NCBI GenBank assembly: GCA_019459485.1
Contig: JAIBEZ010000002.1
Span: forward strand, 1-58,166
Direction: 5' to 3'
Length of the DNA stretch: 58,166 nucleotides
Source: Prolixibacteraceae bacterium
Lineage (GTDB): Bacteria; Bacteroidota; Bacteroidia; Bacteroidales; Prolixibacteraceae
The translations under genes and the position numbers were made by a program. The notes under the pieces are model-generated. The model ran no database searches and had not been told where the DNA came from. It worked only from the letters and a program-made list of their open reading frames with translations. Shown in pieces: positions 46,686 to 56,243 of the stretch. The number at the start of each line of letters is the position of its first letter. Within the stretch, counting starts at the first letter, position 1.

Positions 46686-48038
46686 TTACACCACTCCCTG
46701 AGCGATCATTGCATCGGCAACTTTTATAAAACCGCCAATGTTGGCGCCTTTTACATAGTTGATGTGACCATCTTTTTCGGTTCCGTATTTCACGCATGTT
46801 TCGTGAATATTGATCATGATCTGGTGCAGTTTGGCATCCACTTCTTCTCTCGACCAAGGCAAACGCATCGAGTTTTGCGTCATTTCAAGTCCTGAAGTTG
46901 ATACACCACCGGCATTTGCTGCTTTGCCCGGTCCGTATAGGATTTTTGCAGCAAGAAATACTTCAACAGCTTCAGGAGTTGAAGGCATGTTGGCTCCCTC
47001 TGAAACTGCGAAACAACCATTTGCAACCATTACTTTGGCGTCGTCTTCGTTAATCTCGTTTTGAGTTGCACATGGGAAAGCCGCATCACATTTGATTCCC
47101 CATGGAGTCTGGCCTTCGAAATATTCAACTTTATATTTGTCAGCATATTCTTTGATGCGTCCGCGACGGATATTTTTCAATTCAAGCACATAAGCCAGTT
47201 TTTCTTCGTCGAAACCTTCCGGATCGTAAACAAATCCGGTGGAATCAGACATTGTAACAACTTTTGCTCCCATCTGAATCAATTTTTCAACGGCATATTG
47301 CGACACATTTCCCGATCCTGAAACGACCGCGGTTTTTCCGCTTAAATCCTGACCGCGGGTTTTAAGCATTTGATCGGCAAAATAAACTGCGCCATAACCC
47401 GTAGCTTCCGGACGAATCAAACTTCCGCCCCATTCAATTGCTTTTCCGGTCAACACACCGGTAAATTCATTCCTGATGCGTTTGTATTGTCCGAACATGT
47501 AACCAATCTCACGTCCGCCAACGCCTATGTCACCGGCTGGTACATCAGTATCGTTGCCAATATAACGTTGCAGTTCGGTCATAAAGCTTTGGCAGAAACG
47601 CATCACTTCATTGTCCGATTTTCCTTTGGGATCGAAATCAGAACCCCCTTTTCCACCACCCATCGGCAGCGTTGTCAGGCTGTTTTTGAAAACCTGTTCG
47701 AAAGCAAGGAATTTCAGGATCCCTAAGTTTACCGTCGGGTGAAAGCGGAGACCTCCTTTGTATGGGCCAATTGCGCTGTTCATCTGTATGCGGTATCCTC
47801 TGCTGATCTGAATTTGTCCGTTGTCGTCAACCCACGGAACACGGAACATCATCACCCTTTCAGGCTCTACCATGCGATCCAGTACTTTGGCATACTGGTA
47901 TTTTGGATTTTCCTGAATGAATGGCATCAGCGATTCAACCACTTCTTTTACTGCCTGATGGAACTCAGTTTCTCCCGGGTTTTTGGCAATTACTTTTGCC
48001 ATGAACTCGTTTACTTTTACGTCTAAAATGTTAGCCAT
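46686..48038 (-). CDS. gdhA: glutamate dehydrogenase
   Basis: The 450-residue hexameric-type enzyme has KGGLRFHPTVNLGILKFLAF, MGGGKGGSDFDPKGKSDNEV (catalytic Lys region), VPAGDIGVGGREIGYMFGQY, and a Rossmann domain GKTAVVSGSGNVSQYAVEKL (about 235-255). It interconverts 2-oxoglutarate plus ammonium and glutamate; NADPH preference is likely by family. It would assimilate ammonium such as that made by NrfA. A perfect palindrome lies upstream of its promoter. Confidence 0.96.
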   Translation of the reverse strand: MANILDVKVNEFMAKVIAKNPGETEFHQAVKEVVESLMPFIQENPKYQYAKVLDRMVEPERVMMFRVPWVDDNGQIQISRGYRIQMNSAIGPYKGGLRFHPTVNLGILKFLAFEQVFKNSLTTLPMGGGKGGSDFDPKGKSDNEVMRFCQSFMTELQRYIGNDTDVPAGDIGVGGREIGYMFGQYKRIRNEFTGVLTGKAIEWGGSLIRPEATGYGAVYFADQMLKTRGQDLSGKTAVVSGSGNVSQYAVEKLIQMGAKVVTMSDSTGFVYDPEGFDEEKLAYVLELKNIRRGRIKEYADKYKVEYFEGQTPWGIKCDAAFPCATQNEINEDDAKVMVANGCFAVSEGANMPSTPEAVEVFLAAKILYGPGKAANAGGVSTSGLEMTQNSMRLPWSREEVDAKLHQIMINIHETCVKYGTEKDGHINYVKGANIGGFIKVADAMIAQGVV

Positions 48039-48193: not shown

Positions 48194-49081
48194 TTACCGG
48201 AGTTTGCTGATAATCGGGTTGAATGCTTTTGAGAAAACCATTACCCTGTCGCCAATTTTTAAGTTTTCAAGGTCATTTTCGAAAGCAATGACTTTGATGA
48301 TTTGGTTGTTTCCGGAAATAACTGTCACTATATAAATCGTGTCCTGTTTTTCGATGCGTGCAATTTGCCCGGTAATCTGTACTTTTCCGCTGATGCTGTT
48401 GTCCAAAAACACATCTTCAGGTTTACCGGTTCGGGTAATTGTGCCGTTTTCGATGCAAAGCACCTGAGAGGCAAGTCGAAATACCTCATTTAAATCGTGA
48501 CTGACCATGATGGTGGTCACGCCCAACAATTGATGCGCCTGTGCAATTTCGTCCTGAAGTGTGGCGCGCATTTCAGCATCAAGCGCCGAAAGTGGTTCAT
48601 CAAGCAGCAAGAGTTGCGGCTTTCGGGCAAGGGCGCGCGCCAACGCAACCCGCTGCTTTTGTCCTCCGGATAAGCCATTGGGTTTCCGTTTTCGGAATTC
48701 CGACAAACCAAACATTTCCAGTAAATCATTCAGCGCTAACTGGTTTTTTTCGGGTTGGGCAAACTGAATGTTTTGTTCCACCGTCATGTTCGGAAACAGT
48801 GCATAATCCTGAAACATCAGGCTGATGTTGCGTTGCTGAGGTACAATGTTGATCTGCTTTGCCGAATCGAACCAAACTGTATTTCCAAACCGGATCAATC
48901 CTTTATCAGGAATTACCAATCCGGCCAGAATTCGCAGCAGGGTTGTTTTTCCTGCACCCGACTCACCAAACAAGGCAATCAATTCGCCCGCCGGAATAGT
49001 TGTCTGAATGTCCAGATTCATCGGTCCATTGGCAGTCAGCATCCGCTTTTCAACATCAATATAGATTACATCATTCGCCAT
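48194..49081 (-). CDS. modC: molybdate ABC transporter ATPase ModC
   Basis: The 295-residue protein has Walker A GESGAGKTT (about 39-47), Q-loop QDYALFPNMTVEQN, signature LSGGQKQRVALARALA, Walker B LLLLDEPLSALD, and a C-terminal TOBE-like domain (about 225-295: VQITGQIARIEKQDTIYIV). It powers molybdate (or tungstate) import with ModB. It is the last gene of the six-gene operon, overlapping modB by 16 bp. Confidence 0.9.
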   Translation of the reverse strand: MANDVIYIDVEKRMLTANGPMNLDIQTTIPAGELIALFGESGAGKTTLLRILAGLVIPDKGLIRFGNTVWFDSAKQINIVPQQRNISLMFQDYALFPNMTVEQNIQFAQPEKNQLALNDLLEMFGLSEFRKRKPNGLSGGQKQRVALARALARKPQLLLLDEPLSALDAEMRATLQDEIAQAHQLLGVTTIMVSHDLNEVFRLASQVLCIENGTITRTGKPEDVFLDNSISGKVQITGQIARIEKQDTIYIVTVISGNNQIIKVIAFENDLENLKIGDRVMVFSKAFNPIISKLR

Positions 49082-49746
49082 GTGTCGTATTTTTTATTGA
49101 CGCTGTAAATGGTGGTGAGCAAAACCAGCGAAATCAGGAATAAAATCAGGGCATATTGATTGGCAGCTTCAAAATTGAGTGCCTGTACTTCGTCGTAAAT
49201 GGCAATCGAAGCCACGCGGGTTTCGCCGGGCATGTTTCCACCCACCATCAGCACAATTCCGAATTCGCCAATGCTGTGTGCAAAAGTGAGGGCTACGGCT
49301 GTAATAACCGATGGTTTTATGTTGGGAAGCAATACCCTGAAAAATGTAATCATTTTTGATTTTCCGAGCGTGTAGGATGCTTCGCGCAAACTATCGGGCA
49401 AAGCGCGCAACCCGTTGTGCAACGGTTGAACCATAAAAGGCAGACTAAAAATGACCGAAGCAATCAGCACTCCTTCGAAAGAAAATGCCAGACGAACATC
49501 GAAAATCCGCCCCAGCCAGTCGCCAAACCAGTTGCGCGGACTGTAAATAACCAGCATGTAATACCCGATTACCGAAGGAGGTAAAACCATTGGTATACTT
49601 ACCAAAGCTTCAATGAGCGGTTTTATCCTGACCTTTGTGTAAGCCAGCCAATAAGCAAATGGCAGCCCAATCAGCACTAAAATAACTGTGGTCGAAACCG
49701 CCAGTTTCAGGGTAAGGAGTATCGTTTGTAAAAATTCATTGTCCAT
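49066..49746 (-). CDS. modB: molybdate ABC transporter permease ModB
   Basis: The 226-residue protein is counted from ATG 49746 (MDNEFLQTILLTLKLAVST); an in-frame ATG at 49800 is rejected because it adds a polar extension. About five helices are present, with the EAA-type loop EASYTLGKSKMITFFRVLLP contacting ModC, and SIGEFGIVLMVGGNMPG near the C-terminus, characteristic of ModB. It forms the inner-membrane channel for molybdate. Confidence 0.92.
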   Translation of the reverse strand: MDNEFLQTILLTLKLAVSTTVILVLIGLPFAYWLAYTKVRIKPLIEALVSIPMVLPPSVIGYYMLVIYSPRNWFGDWLGRIFDVRLAFSFEGVLIASVIFSLPFMVQPLHNGLRALPDSLREASYTLGKSKMITFFRVLLPNIKPSVITAVALTFAHSIGEFGIVLMVGGNMPGETRVASIAIYDEVQALNFEAANQYALILFLISLVLLTTIYSVNKKYDTWRMM

Positions 49747-49825
49747 ATTATTCCAATTTGAAGATTTGAAGATTTGAGAATGTGCAGGATTCATTTTCAA
49801 ATTTTCAAATCGTCACATTTTCAAA

Positions 49826-50230
49826 TTATTGTTTTTTCATCAGCGAAACCTCGTTTGCTTTTACCAGCGCTTCCGTTTCATCGCCAACTTTCAGATCGAG
49901 CGAATCGACTGAGCGGGTGGTAATGGCCGAAGTAATCGTGTATTTCAGAAATCGCAGGCTGATTTTGCTCAAAAGCTCGCCACGTTCAACATGCTTCACG
50001 GTGCATTTCATCCGGTTGCGCATACTGATGATTCCTGAAAGGTTTTTTGCCAGCGAAACTTCAGTTTCCTTAAATACCAGTTCAATGTTATGGCCGGTTT
50101 CCAGCCATTCCGGTCGGGTTGCCGATTCGATCAACATGGCCGAAAAGTTTTGTCCATCTACATCCACATCCACCAGGAGAATAGCTCCCGAATGCTGTAT
50201 TTTTGATATTATTCCGGATAATTTATTCAT
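49826..50230 (-). CDS. TOBE/molbindin-like molybdate-binding protein
   Basis: The 134-residue protein has two TOBE-like halves: KLSGIISKIQHSGAILLVDV...NIELVFKETEVSLAKN and LSGIISMRNRMKCTVKHVE...EALVKANEVSLMKKQ. Each has the LSGxI start and a (K)EVSLxK end of molybdate-binding Mop domains. It is a stand-alone di-Mop protein, likely a cytosolic molybdate store or sensor. It overlaps modA by 4 bp. No DNA-binding domain is present, so it is not ModE. Confidence 0.88.
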   Translation of the reverse strand: MNKLSGIISKIQHSGAILLVDVDVDGQNFSAMLIESATRPEWLETGHNIELVFKETEVSLAKNLSGIISMRNRMKCTVKHVERGELLSKISLRFLKYTITSAITTRSVDSLDLKVGDETEALVKANEVSLMKKQ

Positions 50231-50970
50231 TTTGGTAAAGTAAATCCATATTTTTCAAATATCAGCCTTGCAGCAGGGCCGGAAATAAATTCAGAAAATT
50301 CAAATGCTACTCTATTTTGTTTTGCATGATTTAGAATTACATACGCCTGCTCAAGTGGTCGATGCGATTTCTCGTCAATCAAAAAATATTTTCCCTGATT
50401 GCTCATGGATGGCGATAAGACCAGCGATAACGCAATCAAACCCGCCTCAGCATTTCCCGACAGGCAAAATTGAGCAGCCTGAGAGATGTTTTCACCATAA
50501 ATCAACTGTTTCTCAACTTTTTCGTAAAGCCTGTAAAACTTCAATACTTCCACCGACCGCTGCCCATAAGGTGCATGTTCCGGATTGGCAGTTGCTATTT
50601 TGATCTTTGGTTTCTCCGCCAAAACCGACAAGCCTTTGCTTACATCCAAACTTGCACTCCACAAAACAATGCGCCCGATTGCATAAAGTTTTGGTTCAGT
50701 AAGTGTTAACCCGGCTTCTTTTAATTTTTTTGGATATACAATGTCAGCAGAAAAATACAGATCGAATGGCGCACCGTTTGAAATCTGCGTAAAGGCATTG
50801 CCCGACGAACCGTAAATGACTTCTATATTTGCACCCGAATTGGTCTTTTTGAACTCTTTAACTACTTCATCCATTGCGTAACGCAAATCGGCTGCCGCTG
50901 CAACTTTTACTGTTTGCGCCTGAGCCGACATCGCAATCCAAAAGGCTATAATCGTAAGTATTTGTTTCAT
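50227..50970 (-). CDS. modA: periplasmic molybdate-binding protein ModA
   Basis: The 247-residue protein has a signal peptide (1-18, ending AQA) and the ModA pattern VKVAAAADLRYAMDEVVKEF (oxyanion-binding Ser/Ala loop), IEVIYGSSGNAFTQISNGAP and DLYFSADIVYPKKL. It binds molybdate or tungstate in the periplasm for ModBC. It is overlapped by the upstream regulator gene (ATGA, 50967-50970), so regulator and transporter are translated together. Confidence 0.92.
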   Translation of the reverse strand: MKQILTIIAFWIAMSAQAQTVKVAAAADLRYAMDEVVKEFKKTNSGANIEVIYGSSGNAFTQISNGAPFDLYFSADIVYPKKLKEAGLTLTEPKLYAIGRIVLWSASLDVSKGLSVLAEKPKIKIATANPEHAPYGQRSVEVLKFYRLYEKVEKQLIYGENISQAAQFCLSGNAEAGLIALSLVLSPSMSNQGKYFLIDEKSHRPLEQAYVILNHAKQNRVAFEFSEFISGPAARLIFEKYGFTLPK

Positions 50971-51620
50971 ATTTCTATGATATTGTTCTTGATGGCGAAT
51001 TTCACCATGTCAACCGTGCTTTTCAGGTTGAGTTTTTGCATGATGTGGTTTTTGTGCGACTCGACCGTGCGCACGCTGATGAAAAACCGGTCGGCAATTT
51101 CCTGATTGGTGTAACTTTCGCCCCACAATTTCAGGATTTCAATCTGGCGGGCGCTCAAACTGGCAATGTCCGTATTCTGACTCAGTTCATCTGCTTTCAG
51201 GTTTGAAATATAGCGGTTCAGCAAAATATGTGTGATCGATTTACTGTAATAATCGTGCCCGTTCCGGAGCGTATAAACGGCTTCGAGCAGATCGTTCCTG
51301 TCCGAATCTTTCCCAAGAAACCCCTTTGCCCCGGCTTTGATGGTCTTGAGCACAATATCTTCGCTGTCGATAACCGATACAATTAGTATTTTTAACTTGG
51401 GACTGCTGATATTTAACTGAATGATCAGGTTCAGGTTGCGCACCGAAATGTCGTGCATGTTCAGGATTAACACATGAACCTGAATTATTTTCAGCTTATC
51501 GGTCAGCACATTGCGATCGTCGCAGGCCAGCACAACCCTGAAATCAGAAATACCCGATAACAAACCCGAAAGTCCGTCGAGTACCAGTTTGTGTTCGTCA
51601 TAAATTGCGATATCAATCAT
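50967..51620 (-). CDS. LuxR/NarL-type regulator with Asn54 receiver
   Basis: In this 217-residue protein, residues 1-120 form a receiver fold: acidic D8-E9 (AIYDEHKLVLDGL) and Lys in AGAKGFLGKDS are kept, but the phosphorylated Asp is replaced by Asn54 (VLILNMHDIS). Residues 150-217 are a LuxR-type helix-turn-helix (SLSARQIEILKLWGESYTNQ, IADRFFISVRTVESHKNHIM). It lies 3 bp after the 1539-residue sensor gene and overlaps modA, so it probably controls this operon without ordinary phosphorylation of its own receiver. Confidence 0.9.
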   Translation of the reverse strand: MIDIAIYDEHKLVLDGLSGLLSGISDFRVVLACDDRNVLTDKLKIIQVHVLILNMHDISVRNLNLIIQLNISSPKLKILIVSVIDSEDIVLKTIKAGAKGFLGKDSDRNDLLEAVYTLRNGHDYYSKSITHILLNRYISNLKADELSQNTDIASLSARQIEILKLWGESYTNQEIADRFFISVRTVESHKNHIMQKLNLKSTVDMVKFAIKNNIIEI

Positions 51621-51623
51621 AGC

Positions 51624-54600
51624 TTAAATCATAATTGTCGAAGTTTTTAACCTTCCATCCATCAATATCGTCAGTGGGTTTTTAAACTGAACATGTTTGA
51701 AGAAATTGGTTTCGTGCACTACTTTCTGACTGTTCAGCATTTCCCAACTCACAAAATCGTTTGGCGACGAATGCTGAACCGAAAAATAGCCAATGTTCAT
51801 GGAAGTAACATTGTGGAAAAAGTGCGATCCCAATGAAGAATCGAGCGGATAATTATCGAGGCTCACCTCAACGATCACTTTCGCATTCGAAATCTGCGAC
51901 CAGTTAACCGGAATACCTACAAAACGGTCGCGACTTCCCCATCTTCCGGGGCCGATCAACACATATTTCCGGTCGTTTTCAACCATCATTTTATTCAGCT
52001 TTTCTATCTCTTCGGCCATTTCGATGGTTTTCAGTTTGCTGAATTTTTCATTGTCAACAAAAATTACATCCCTGATTTCCTTGATTTCGCCATTGCCAAC
52101 ACTCGATTTGGTGAACAAAACCATTTTCGAACGGTCCAGTTTATCGAGTTCGATGTTCTGCTTGATCTGGTCGCCGATCAGCGGCTTGATTTGCAAAAGG
52201 TAAAAAGTTGGCAAACCATTTTTCGACCGGTCGAGATCGACTGCATACTCAATTTCGACCGGCGAACCGAATGCCTCGTTGAGCGTGCTGAGCAATATGC
52301 TGATGGTTTCGGCAAGCGGAATGTAGCCGTAATTCAGAATGTCGGCAAAGTTGACAATCCGCGGCCCGTAAGCGCTCAGACCCGGCTCAACCCGATCGTT
52401 ATCAGGAATGTAAACCGAAGCGCAATGCGTCAGTGTTCCGTGTTTTTCTGCCTCGCTGATATTCAAAAGTTTGAGCGCTGCCAGTTCTCCGTGTTTCAGG
52501 AAGTCGAGTTCTGTTTCGCGGCAATCGAGTGCGTAAAACTGAACCTGCGAACTGTTCAGTAAATCTTTGATGCTGTAAATGGAAACCTGCGGGTATTTGG
52601 GTGAAAACCGGAACGATTTCCAGCCATCGACCACATACGTTCCCAAACCAACTGCTGCAACTGCAAAACCTTCTTCCGGTTTCATGTTGGCCACCGGATA
52701 ATAATTGTACGACTGCGCTACCCCGCTAATGTGCGGATAATAATAATCGCCGTATTGATTACCAACTAATTCCTGAAGAATGACAGCCATTTTTTCCTCT
52801 TCAATCTTGTGATGGATGACAGAGAAATAATTTCGTGCTTTTTCTGAAAATGTAGAAACAAAAACCAGTTTAATGGCAGTGGAAAGCCGTTCGAGCAGCA
52901 GTCGTTTATTCGTTTTGCTGTTTGGAACAATGTAGGTGTCGAACACCCCTGCAAATGGCTGCGTAATAGAATCTTCAGACGAACTTGATGATCTCACTGC
53001 GATGGGTTTGTCTATCTGCGATGTAAAAACTTTTAGCTTTTTCAGGAGCGAAATCGACAAATGAGCCTCCACAAACAGCGTTCTCAACTGATCGTAGGAA
53101 ATATCCGGATCTATGATTTTATCGAAAAGTTTGTTTTTCTGGATGAAATGCTGAAATTCATTTGAGCCGATTATTACTGTAATTGGCGCAAGAATGTTGA
53201 TCTGATTGGCCAGAGTTGGGAAATCCAGGTTGTAAATCAGCGTATTGATGAATGCCAGGCCGCGGCCTTTTCCGCCAAGCGAACCGCCTGAAAAGGAAAC
53301 AATGTTTTTTTCGTCGAGTACCGAAGTTTCATCGAAAGAAAGGATTTTGCCTTTTTTCTTTTCTTCCCGGTATTGTTTGATGGTATCCAGAAAGAATTGC
53401 CTTGTTTCGTCCATATCCTTAAACACACTGATCGATACCGGGTTGAGTGTTTTTGCCAGTTGAATTTCGCCACGAGCCATCAGCCAAAGCGAAAACTGGT
53501 TCTCGGAAGCGTGCAGGTACAACGATTCGTCGGGCACTTCCTGAAGCAGCGTTTCAAACTCGCGCAACGATTTTGCCACCCCAACTTTGTTTCCTTCCTT
53601 GTCGCGGAAAACAAAATTACCAAAACCCAGATAGCTGGTCAGGTAGTGTTTGAGGTCGTTCAACAGTGTTTCCGAATTTTTGTTGATGAAGGTAACTTCG
53701 AGCTCATTTGCAATTTTCTCGTTTCTGTTTTCCGACGATTGCAAAATGATTGGCAGCTTGGAAATGTGCGATTTAACGTATTTGATGAATTTTACCCCAG
53801 CATTTTTGTCCAGTTTTCCAACCCTGTCGAACTCAACATCCGAAATCACACAAAGCAAAAAGTCTTTGTACTTGTTGAAAATGGCGGTTGCTTCCTCATA
53901 ATTGCGGGCGTGCAGTATTTTCGGTCTCGAACGCATTTTGCAAATCTTGTCGAGTTCGTTTTTCTCCACTTCGGGCAACAATTGCTGCACCTGGCTAAAA
54001 ACGATGTCGTACAATATCTGAAGGTATTTCGAATAATAAAGCGGCGAATCCTCAATAAGTAGAATCACCCTGACAAGGCCAATTTTCGTGTCGTTCTCTA
54101 CATTTACTTTGTCCTCGGTCGATTTTACGATGGCGAACAGAATCAGCGAGTCGCCGTTCCAGACAAATAGTTTATCGACCGACCGGATGGTTGGAACCAG
54201 TTCTTCAAAATATTTGATGTCGCTTTTGTTGTTCAGCAATAAATAAATGGGCAGCGATTCGTTTCTGGCCCTGATTTGTTCGCTCAAATGCACAGGCGCT
54301 TCGCGGTCCATGCCTGCCATCAGGATAACCAAGTCGAAATGTGTAGTTTCCATCAACATCAGCGCCTCTTCATCAGAAGAAACCCCTGTAATCCGGGGAA
54401 CCGAAAAAAGGCTGTACTGGTAGGCCTCTCCCATGAATTTCTCGAAAAACGAGTCTTCGCTTTCGAGGGTAAAAGCATCGTACAAAGTAGCCACAAATAA
54501 AATATGCTTGACCTTGTACTTCATCATGTCGAGATAAATGTACTTGTCGATCGACTGCTGGTTGAAGTACAACTGGAGCGGTTTCTTGTTTTTTATCAGC

Positions 54601-56243
54601 GAATTGCGGAACTCTTCCGGCGGATGAATTACCTGACTTGGAACGCCTTTCCGGTGTATTATTTCACGGCCTTTGTAATTGTTGAGGTAGCCGCTGATCA
54701 GTTTTCCGATGTTAATCAGCAAATTACGTTCTTCATGAAGGAACAGCTTTTCATCTTCACTGTGTACTTTTTTCAGATAAAAAATTTCGATCGTCCCTTT
54801 TTTATTGTCGATGGTTACAAAGTTTTCTTTCTGAACCCATTCTGTTTCCTTGAAATTCTCGCTGGTGTACGATTTTCCTTCAAAGCTGATACGGGCGACC
54901 GCGTATTTAGGATATTGCCACGATTTGGGAAGCAAATGACTTATTTCCTGCAGGGTTTCATCAACCGGTTTGCCTTCTTCAATGATCAGTGATGTCAGGT
55001 TAATGGCTTTTAGTTCCTTTAAACGTTCCGTATTTTCGCGTTGCAGCTTATTAAAAACGTCGCGGGTGGCCGAACCTGCGATCAGGTTCGACAGGTTGAT
55101 CAGCATGTTTCGCTCTTCTTTCAGGAACGGCCCTTCATCGGCGTCGGGGAATTCCATCAGATAATAAACTTCGATTGTGCCCTTTTCCTTTCCGGGTGCT
55201 TCAAAGCTTTGCGTCATTTTCCAGGGCGTTTCCTTAAAACCGGGGCTAATAAAAATCTTTTTGTTGTAGTTAATCCGTGCGACAGTATATTCGGGATATT
55301 GCAGCGACTCGGGCAGGATGGTGCAAATGACCTGAAGCGACTCTTTCAGCGATTTACCATTTTGCAGTATTTCAGAAGTTTTGTTGATTCCCTTTATTTC
55401 TTTCAGACGCTCGGTGTTCCTGATCAGTAGTTCCTGCAAAGCCTTCTTCGAAGCAGTTCCTGAAATCAGGGCTGAAAGATTGTCGATCAGGCTGCGCTCT
55501 TCGGTTAGAAAGGGTCCTTCTCCGGCCTCCGGGAATTTCTTTAGGTAATAGATTTGAATGGCGCCTTTGTTATCATCGGGCGTATCGAATGTTTGTTCTA
55601 ATTTCCAGGGCGTTTCCCTGAAGTTGGGACTGGTAAAATTTCGTTCACCGTATTTGATGCGGGCCACGGTGTGTCCCGGATATTGCATGGCTTCGGGCAA
55701 AAAGGAACAGATTTCCTGCAGCAATTCGTTAAGCGAAGTGGTTTTTTTCAGGATTTCGGTGGTGCGGTTGATGCTTTTAAGCTCTTTTTGCCGTTCACCC
55801 ATGTCGATCGCCAACTTTTCGAGCTGAAATTTTGAGATCATGCCAACCAGTAACGGCACAATAATATTTAACGACGACTCGCTTTCGAGAATGGCTGTTC
55901 CCGATATTGGGTTGTTTTCCGGAGAAGAAAGGAACAGTTCTACAGATCCCTTTTTATTGTCGGGAGAATGAAAGTAATGTTTTAATGCTGAGGTTGTTTC
56001 ACTAAACCTTTTACTTCTGAACTCTTTCCCATTGAACGATATGCGTGCAAAAACCTTGTTTTCGATCAGTGTTGATTCAAGAATTGCATCACAAGCCAAT
56101 TGCAGCGATTGATCAAGGTTTTTGCCTTTGTCGAGTATTCCAATAAGCCGGTTTGTCAGTTCAGGCAGAACAAACAGTCCGTTCATTTTAAGTATAATAT
56201 CGTCCGTTCCTGAAGTATCTGAAATTTTTTCCATGGGTTTCAA
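51624..56243 (-). CDS. giant sensor with PEP-synthase-like ATP-binding domain
   Basis: The 1539-residue cytosolic protein has four related modules of about 120 residues (26-150, 152-270, 272-397, 400-525) sharing QYPxYTVARI, ETPWxxxQxF, KGTIEVYYL and EGPFLxEERxLI; they look GAF-like. A pseudo-receiver follows (about 578-705, no Asp), then a complete receiver (725-865: E731/D732, D802, K855). Next is a PPDK/PEP-synthase N-terminal domain (about 985-1370: GGSLGGKGRGLAFI, AVRSSSSSEDS, FAGVFDTYIV, AVGLGTYVVDG) and a conserved tail with GPGRWGSRDRFVGIPV. No histidine-kinase core and no PEP-domain phosphohistidine motif are present. It probably senses a signal and uses ATP or a phospho-compound in a way not yet defined. 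Confidence 0.88.
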   Translation of the reverse strand: MKPMEKISDTSGTDDIILKMNGLFVLPELTNRLIGILDKGKNLDQSLQLACDAILESTLIENKVFARISFNGKEFRSKRFSETTSALKHYFHSPDNKKGSVELFLSSPENNPISGTAILESESSLNIIVPLLVGMISKFQLEKLAIDMGERQKELKSINRTTEILKKTTSLNELLQEICSFLPEAMQYPGHTVARIKYGERNFTSPNFRETPWKLEQTFDTPDDNKGAIQIYYLKKFPEAGEGPFLTEERSLIDNLSALISGTASKKALQELLIRNTERLKEIKGINKTSEILQNGKSLKESLQVICTILPESLQYPEYTVARINYNKKIFISPGFKETPWKMTQSFEAPGKEKGTIEVYYLMEFPDADEGPFLKEERNMLINLSNLIAGSATRDVFNKLQRENTERLKELKAINLTSLIIEEGKPVDETLQEISHLLPKSWQYPKYAVARISFEGKSYTSENFKETEWVQKENFVTIDNKKGTIEIFYLKKVHSEDEKLFLHEERNLLINIGKLISGYLNNYKGREIIHRKGVPSQVIHPPEEFRNSLIKNKKPLQLYFNQQSIDKYIYLDMMKYKVKHILFVATLYDAFTLESEDSFFEKFMGEAYQYSLFSVPRITGVSSDEEALMLMETTHFDLVILMAGMDREAPVHLSEQIRARNESLPIYLLLNNKSDIKYFEELVPTIRSVDKLFVWNGDSLILFAIVKSTEDKVNVENDTKIGLVRVILLIEDSPLYYSKYLQILYDIVFSQVQQLLPEVEKNELDKICKMRSRPKILHARNYEEATAIFNKYKDFLLCVISDVEFDRVGKLDKNAGVKFIKYVKSHISKLPIILQSSENRNEKIANELEVTFINKNSETLLNDLKHYLTSYLGFGNFVFRDKEGNKVGVAKSLREFETLLQEVPDESLYLHASENQFSLWLMARGEIQLAKTLNPVSISVFKDMDETRQFFLDTIKQYREEKKKGKILSFDETSVLDEKNIVSFSGGSLGGKGRGLAFINTLIYNLDFPTLANQINILAPITVIIGSNEFQHFIQKNKLFDKIIDPDISYDQLRTLFVEAHLSISLLKKLKVFTSQIDKPIAVRSSSSSEDSITQPFAGVFDTYIVPNSKTNKRLLLERLSTAIKLVFVSTFSEKARNYFSVIHHKIEEEKMAVILQELVGNQYGDYYYPHISGVAQSYNYYPVANMKPEEGFAVAAVGLGTYVVDGWKSFRFSPKYPQVSIYSIKDLLNSSQVQFYALDCRETELDFLKHGELAALKLLNISEAEKHGTLTHCASVYIPDNDRVEPGLSAYGPRIVNFADILNYGYIPLAETISILLSTLNEAFGSPVEIEYAVDLDRSKNGLPTFYLLQIKPLIGDQIKQNIELDKLDRSKMVLFTKSSVGNGEIKEIRDVIFVDNEKFSKLKTIEMAEEIEKLNKMMVENDRKYVLIGPGRWGSRDRFVGIPVNWSQISNAKVIVEVSLDNYPLDSSLGSHFFHNVTSMNIGYFSVQHSSPNDFVSWEMLNSQKVVHETNFFKHVQFKNPLTILMDGRLKTSTIMI

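Follow-up and report, generated by a model that had tools for sequence, protein, structure and literature searches.

Several described systems combine a PPDK_N-type ATP domain or a phosphohistidine domain with other functions. Pyruvate, phosphate dikinase (PPDK) and phosphoenolpyruvate (PEP) synthase carry PPDK_N, then a PEP-utilizers domain with the catalytic histidine and then a PEP barrel; rifampin phosphotransferase and PigC/RedH-type proteins use a swivelling His domain for chemistry other than PEP synthesis. EI-Ntr (PtsP) joins a sensory N-terminus to a phosphohistidine swivel domain that regulates nitrogen metabolism, with PEP used through its barrel, and PorX consists of a receiver and a PglZ output. 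Here we analyse a 58,166-nucleotide stretch (the window) of contig JAIBEZ010000002.1 from a Prolixibacteraceae bacterium (assembly GCA_019459485.1), in which one gene encodes a 1539-residue protein with repeated sensory modules, receivers and a PPDK_N domain near a glutamate dehydrogenase (GDH) gene. We consider the chances evenly balanced that this protein belongs to a broad family of GDH regulators driven by ATP, and that the family is a functional partner of GDH is likely. Because the family gene recurs beside the GDH gene, the protein probably serves nitrogen assimilation as an energy-driven switch, rather than being the stand-alone new sensor proposed in a preliminary description of the sequence. 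The gene, its core domains (residue numbers, aa) and the relevant neighbours are as follows.

51624..56243, reverse strand: whole gene, a single open frame of 1539 aa from TTG
54078..54506, reverse strand: pseudo-receiver REC1, aa ~580-722, Met642 apparently replacing the phospho-Asp (Pfam Response_reg 618-677, E 4.6e-6, below cut-off)
53604..54074, reverse strand: receiver REC2, aa ~724-880, with E731/D732, D802 and K855 (fold recognition and conservation)
53343..53576, reverse strand: DUF5752-like linker region, aa 890-967, weak (Pfam E 5e-4, below cut-off)
52176..53282, reverse strand: PPDK_N ATP-grasp domain, aa 988-1356, with K992, R1084, E1330, E1332 and Q1351 (Pfam E 2.9e-35)
51627..52160, reverse strand: tail, aa 1362-1539, probable diverged swivelling phosphohistidine domain with GPGRWGS and GSHFFHN motifs
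51822..51824, reverse strand: codon of the invariant His1474, proposed phospho-acceptor (conservation and tail model)
50967..51620, reverse strand: adjacent LuxR-type regulator, receiver without Asp (Asn here)
46686..48038, reverse strand: NADP-type glutamate dehydrogenase GdhA, 450 aa, proposed target (NF006929, 774 bits)

An in-frame ATG three codons after the TTG is an equally likely start, giving a coding sequence of 51624-56234. The PPDK_N assignment of the preliminary description was confirmed, and the residues K992, R1084, E1330, E1332 and Q1351 are invariant in 137/137 aligned family members (136 distinct; loci L071 and L106 represent one region that is counted twice, here and in the 120-locus neighbour count below; some loci were chosen by us from search matches). 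K992, E1332 and Q1351 align with the matching motifs of a PEP-synthase-type protein (L224, from the genome of a Thermoplasmatota metagenome-assembled genome, MAG) and of the PPDK of the window's own genome, and R1084 aligns with the Arg motif of the former, the own-genome PPDK being misaligned around this Arg. The core is, judged by sequence, an active-looking enzyme half.

The protein stops 183 aa past PPDK_N. In Pfam and NCBIfam scans it gave no HisKA, HATPase or PEP-utilizers match, as the preliminary description had read for the kinase module; there was no Pfam match to a PEP/pyruvate barrel, and the NCBIfam matches were limited to the PPDK_N part. The same description held that no phosphohistidine domain is present, which stands for sequence searches but probably not for structure. 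When a model of the tail was compared with known structures, the top VIA-align matches were PPDK phosphoryl-carrier domains, and its secondary structure corresponds, by our own reading, to that of the PPDK carrier domain. His1474, the second residue of helix 121-129 in the model, is invariant in 137/137 aligned members and in 100/100 of another alignment, and the tail motifs GPGRWG and GSHFFxN are highly conserved. Two comparisons weigh against a His domain here: hhalign of the tail gave nothing against 13 PPDK sequences, nor against 46 PEP-utilizers sequences with four settings. Because sequence profiles found no PEP-utilizers link, we restrict the claim of a hidden His domain to structure and anatomy, by which the tail (GPGRWGS...GSHFFHN) is probably a diverged swivelling phosphohistidine domain. 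The premise of a PPDK_N domain without its histidine is therefore not borne out, and the hidden phosphohistidine domain that the preliminary description had named as counting against its own proposal is probably present by fold, though unmatched by sequence profiles. We regard PPDK-type phosphorylation of His1474 as about equally open to being right or wrong.

This layout resembles PPDK and PEP synthase in having PPDK_N with conserved ATP residues and, directly after it and in the same order, a domain of probably similar fold with an invariant His. Unlike these enzymes, the window protein lacks the PEP/pyruvate barrel, has a tail unrecognised by sequence, bears N-terminal receivers, and has Lys (K1353) where an Arg follows the ATP-site Gln in those enzymes, the family being divided between Lys (86/137) and Arg (51/137). 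It shares PPDK_N with rifampin phosphotransferase and PigC/RedH-type proteins, but no acceptor-binding domain was recognised in it, and it has receivers instead. If our model holds, it also resembles EI-Ntr in coupling a sensory N-terminus to a phosphohistidine swivel domain in nitrogen control, but would use ATP through PPDK_N, with no match to a PEP-binding barrel.

A split enzyme with a separate PEP-utilizers partner gene is unlikely in the own genome, because its single PF00391 match falls within a frame of 913 aa in which PPDK_N is present as well. A weak PF00391 match in a Labilibaculum genome (L242, 992-aa frame) was set aside as another protein with its domains, read by eye, in reverse order; there, a PEP-utilizers-like His domain appears to precede a PPDK_N-like part, the opposite of the usual arrangement. 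A fourth PPDK_N match of the own genome (C85, L155) falls within a frame of 807 aa that contains an in-frame TGA.

A survey of gene neighbourhoods revealed a link to GDH that had gone unnoticed in the preliminary description. The NADP-type GDH cluster occurs in the flank of the family gene in 50/120 loci, within two genes in 47/120, and was not seen in 70/120; among loci with record titles not naming Bacteroidota, it is in the flank in 13/33. In an evenly drawn sample of the order, GDH lies within 5 kb for 58 of the 150 family matches listed, and in 40/103 genomes. The window reads, on one strand, family gene, LuxR-type regulator, a four-frame molybdate-type transport set (48194-50970; Pfam domains of a solute-binding protein, TOBE, permease and ABC ATPase) and GDH. 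In 12 related loci, arranged family gene-regulator-GDH, GDH comes straight after the regulator with no transport genes between them, so that in the window the transport set seems to have been inserted into a conserved gene order.

The family comprises two sub-lineages, window-like and short members, and their adjacent GDHs differ accordingly (member type A/B assigned by us from score order). Among the matches listed, with a gap of <1.6 kb, 25/26 window-like members lie next to a GDH with 70-79% identity to that of the window (exception, G100), 23 of the 26 pairs being head-to-head, and 21/21 short members lie next to a GDH with 59-67% identity to it. Along a GDH tree of 64 sequences (a quick tree, near-copies included), the adjacent member type changes 5 times, compared with ~19 in shuffles; outside Bacteroidota the correspondence between member type and GDH type is not clean. 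Other recurring neighbours are KorA/KorB, NfnA- and GltD/NfnB-like subunits and NuoE/NuoF-like proteins, all of them part of the metabolism of 2-oxoacids, glutamate or pyridine nucleotides/ferredoxin.

Two family members share one locus in 20/120 cases, mostly in tandem (e.g. L044, L045, L047, L089, L125, L136) and in several cases placed after KorA/KorB and before GDH, which suggests a heteromer or a division of labour. An Asp-less LuxR-type regulator is conserved beside the family gene, and it was rejected as a general phospho-acceptor because the receiver Asp is absent in 21/23 of its homologues (alignment read by eye). A small putative Hpt-domain protein is encoded near the family gene in 5/120 loci (L067, L068, L107, L109, L111), one of them identified by Pfam at 27.1 bits.

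In the most economical account, the ATP domain would charge His1474, and this state, alone or via D802, would set GDH activity. PPDK_N would pass phosphate from ATP to His1474 on the diverged swivelling domain, as in the front half of PPDK and PEP synthase. No PEP/pyruvate barrel comes after it; the protein bears instead an N-terminal pseudo-receiver and intact receiver, plus four sensory modules in the window lineage. Phosphate on His1474, perhaps handed to Asp802, or a conformational state set by it, would then switch the activity of the neighbouring GDH, and ammonia assimilation would thereby track energy and carbon/nitrogen state. Domain content, conserved residues, the resemblance in fold of the tail, the genomic coupling to GDH and, in the order sampled, the pairing by paralogue are observed, and from them we infer a direct action on GDH, phosphorylation of His1474 and participation of the receiver. 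The earlier idea of the ATP domain as a signalling output gains from the conserved ATP site, the intact second receiver, the failure to find an ordinary kinase module in the protein and the GDH/2-oxoacid:ferredoxin oxidoreductase/LuxR neighbourhood, which would suit a regulator at a central metabolic node; its premise, a PPDK_N domain that has lost its His, is not supported.

Both receiver assignments of the preliminary description agree with the alignment. In REC2 the acidic and lysine residues are as it stated and are conserved (E731 in 137/137; D732 in 125/137, with Asn in 11; D802 in 135/137; K855 in 136/137), and the domain, recognised by fold in the window protein without a Pfam match, was matched by Pfam in L054. 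In REC1 the phospho-site position, placed by our own reading, holds Met642, and Met in 129/137 members. By these residues REC2 is an active-looking receiver and REC1 one without a phospho-Asp. A recent duplication giving REC1 and REC2 is unsupported (pairwise score 44, shuffle maximum 50). The receiver as phosphate acceptor is possible but the least supported step, and we consider phosphate transfer to D802 doubtful.

Phosphate could instead flow into the receiver, with the protein acting as a response regulator with an enzymatic output: D802 would be phosphorylated in trans by a histidine kinase, an Hpt protein or acetyl phosphate, and would gate a phosphotransferase made up of PPDK_N and the His domain, with GDH or a small molecule as its substrate. 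The canonical, conserved REC2 and the putative Hpt protein in 5/120 loci are in keeping with this, as is PorX, a Bacteroidota receiver protein with an unusual, enzyme-like output, albeit with an unrelated output domain. However, among the 40 largest neighbour clusters, inspected by eye and without a systematic kinase scan, so that an orphan kinase would escape, the only two-component genes recognised were the LuxR regulator (23 loci) and Hpt (5 loci), and we hold this explanation to be of low probability.

The neighbours that could be identified are enzymes of a single metabolic node, which would also suit a metabolic enzyme. It would use ATP for a phosphoryl, pyrophosphoryl or ligase reaction with a small molecule of the 2-oxoglutarate/glutamate node; the receivers would control it allosterically, and the linkage to GDH, KorAB and Nfn would mirror a pathway. 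PigC and rifampin phosphotransferase act on small molecules with PPDK_N/His-type domains, and the full ATP-grasp site and highly conserved GPGRWG and GSHFFxN motifs point the same way; these two families gave weak partial NCBIfam matches only. Yet no substrate domain was recognised, whether between the ATP and tail domains or behind them, a PEP barrel was not matched and the receivers belong to the conserved core, which makes such an enzyme improbable. More improbable still is a non-catalytic nucleotide sensor or scaffold, in which PPDK_N would bind ATP, ADP or AMP and activate GDH by binding without phosphoryl transfer. It would fit a GDH activator and the missing sequence-profile link between the tail and PEP-utilizers, but the catalytic-type residues and the His are invariant across the sampled phyla, and sensing alone would not demand this.

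The proposed regulation of GDH by His1474 chemistry can be set beside an older observation. In 1996, Baggio and Morrison reportedly assigned a trans-acting GDH factor to a ~3 kb segment immediately downstream of gdhA in B. thetaiotaomicron, and in E. coli this 3-kb segment, supplied in trans, is said to have restored GDH activity. A coding length of ~3 kb is what short family members require. In one family of the order (f58, membership of Bacteroides/Bacteroidaceae not confirmed), GDH lies within 1.5 kb in 11/30 fetched loci, with the family gene directly downstream of gdhA in 5 (L163 and L269 convergent; L288, L294 and L295 co-directional) and head-to-head in 6; one f58 locus reads malic enzyme, gdh, family gene (convergent), prolyl oligopeptidase and a second gdh. 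The complete proposal, in which a PPDK-type ATP domain feeds a swivelling His and then the Asp of a receiver in the same protein to control GDH, and the family is the long-unidentified trans-acting GDH factor of Bacteroides, is in our estimate unlikely to hold as a whole.

Regulation of GDH-based ammonia assimilation is poorly known in Bacteroidota, which are abundant gut and environmental bacteria. If our proposal is true, a function could be assigned to a very common family now visible to annotation only via PPDK_N, and the 1996 observation would become directly testable. Transfer from a swivelling His to a receiver would join two normally separate phosphotransfer systems and give signalling one more ATP-dependent way to phosphorylate histidine. 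Every recognised domain is already known; their combination in a widespread family, the tie to GDH and the likely hidden His domain, like the family itself, were not found described in the titles and abstract starts listed by one open-access library.

The family was present in 57/61 genomes searched, including the own genome, and, among the matches listed, in 102/118 good-quality genomes of the order sample. Of at least 583 relatives in named genomes, the best 80 show 37-75% identity and come from Bacteroidota and from records titled Spirochaetes/Spirochaetota, Acidobacteriota, Holophagaceae, Geothrix limicola, Cloacimonadota, Desulfobacterales, Gemmatimonadota, Neomarinimicrobiota, Myxococcales, Eisenbacteria, Krumholzibacteriia and one Thermoplasmatota MAG, among others; many are metagenome bins, and individual taxon assignments may be wrong.

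In the window protein four modules precede the core.

55794..56189, reverse strand: module M1, aa 19-150, most diverged copy (29-30% identity to M2-M4, 18-22 standard deviations over shuffles)
55389..55799, reverse strand: module M2, aa 149-285 (pairwise module comparison; similar stretches in PAS-containing proteins of related genomes)
55008..55418, reverse strand: module M3, aa 276-412 (75/135 identical to M2)
54609..55037, reverse strand: module M4, aa 403-545 (pairwise module comparison)

Their homology, claimed in the preliminary description, is upheld: all six pairwise scores lie 18-76 standard deviations above shuffles, with 44-56% identity among M2-M4 and ~30% between M1 and these, and by this comparison the modules are true repeats. 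They have no credible Pfam match in the window protein, yet module-like stretches recur in PAS-containing proteins of related genomes (L216-L218, L221, L223), with HisKA, HATPase_c and a receiver in 2/5 examined, and the module may therefore be a shared, unnamed sensory domain. In this respect the protein resembles Bacteroidota hybrid sensor histidine kinases, from which it differs in lacking a HisKA/HATPase match. A sensor with four modules describes the window lineage only, as most examined family members lack four. The family's common part starts near residue 558 (conserved unit aa ~558-1539), and the N-terminal extension before it measures <=120 aa in 79 of the 137 members, 121-240 in 33, 241-320 in 6, 400-450 in 7 and >530 in 12, a spread that agrees with zero to four modules, their number in other members being deduced from extension length. 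A second family member in the window's own genome, of 996 aa, is without modules.
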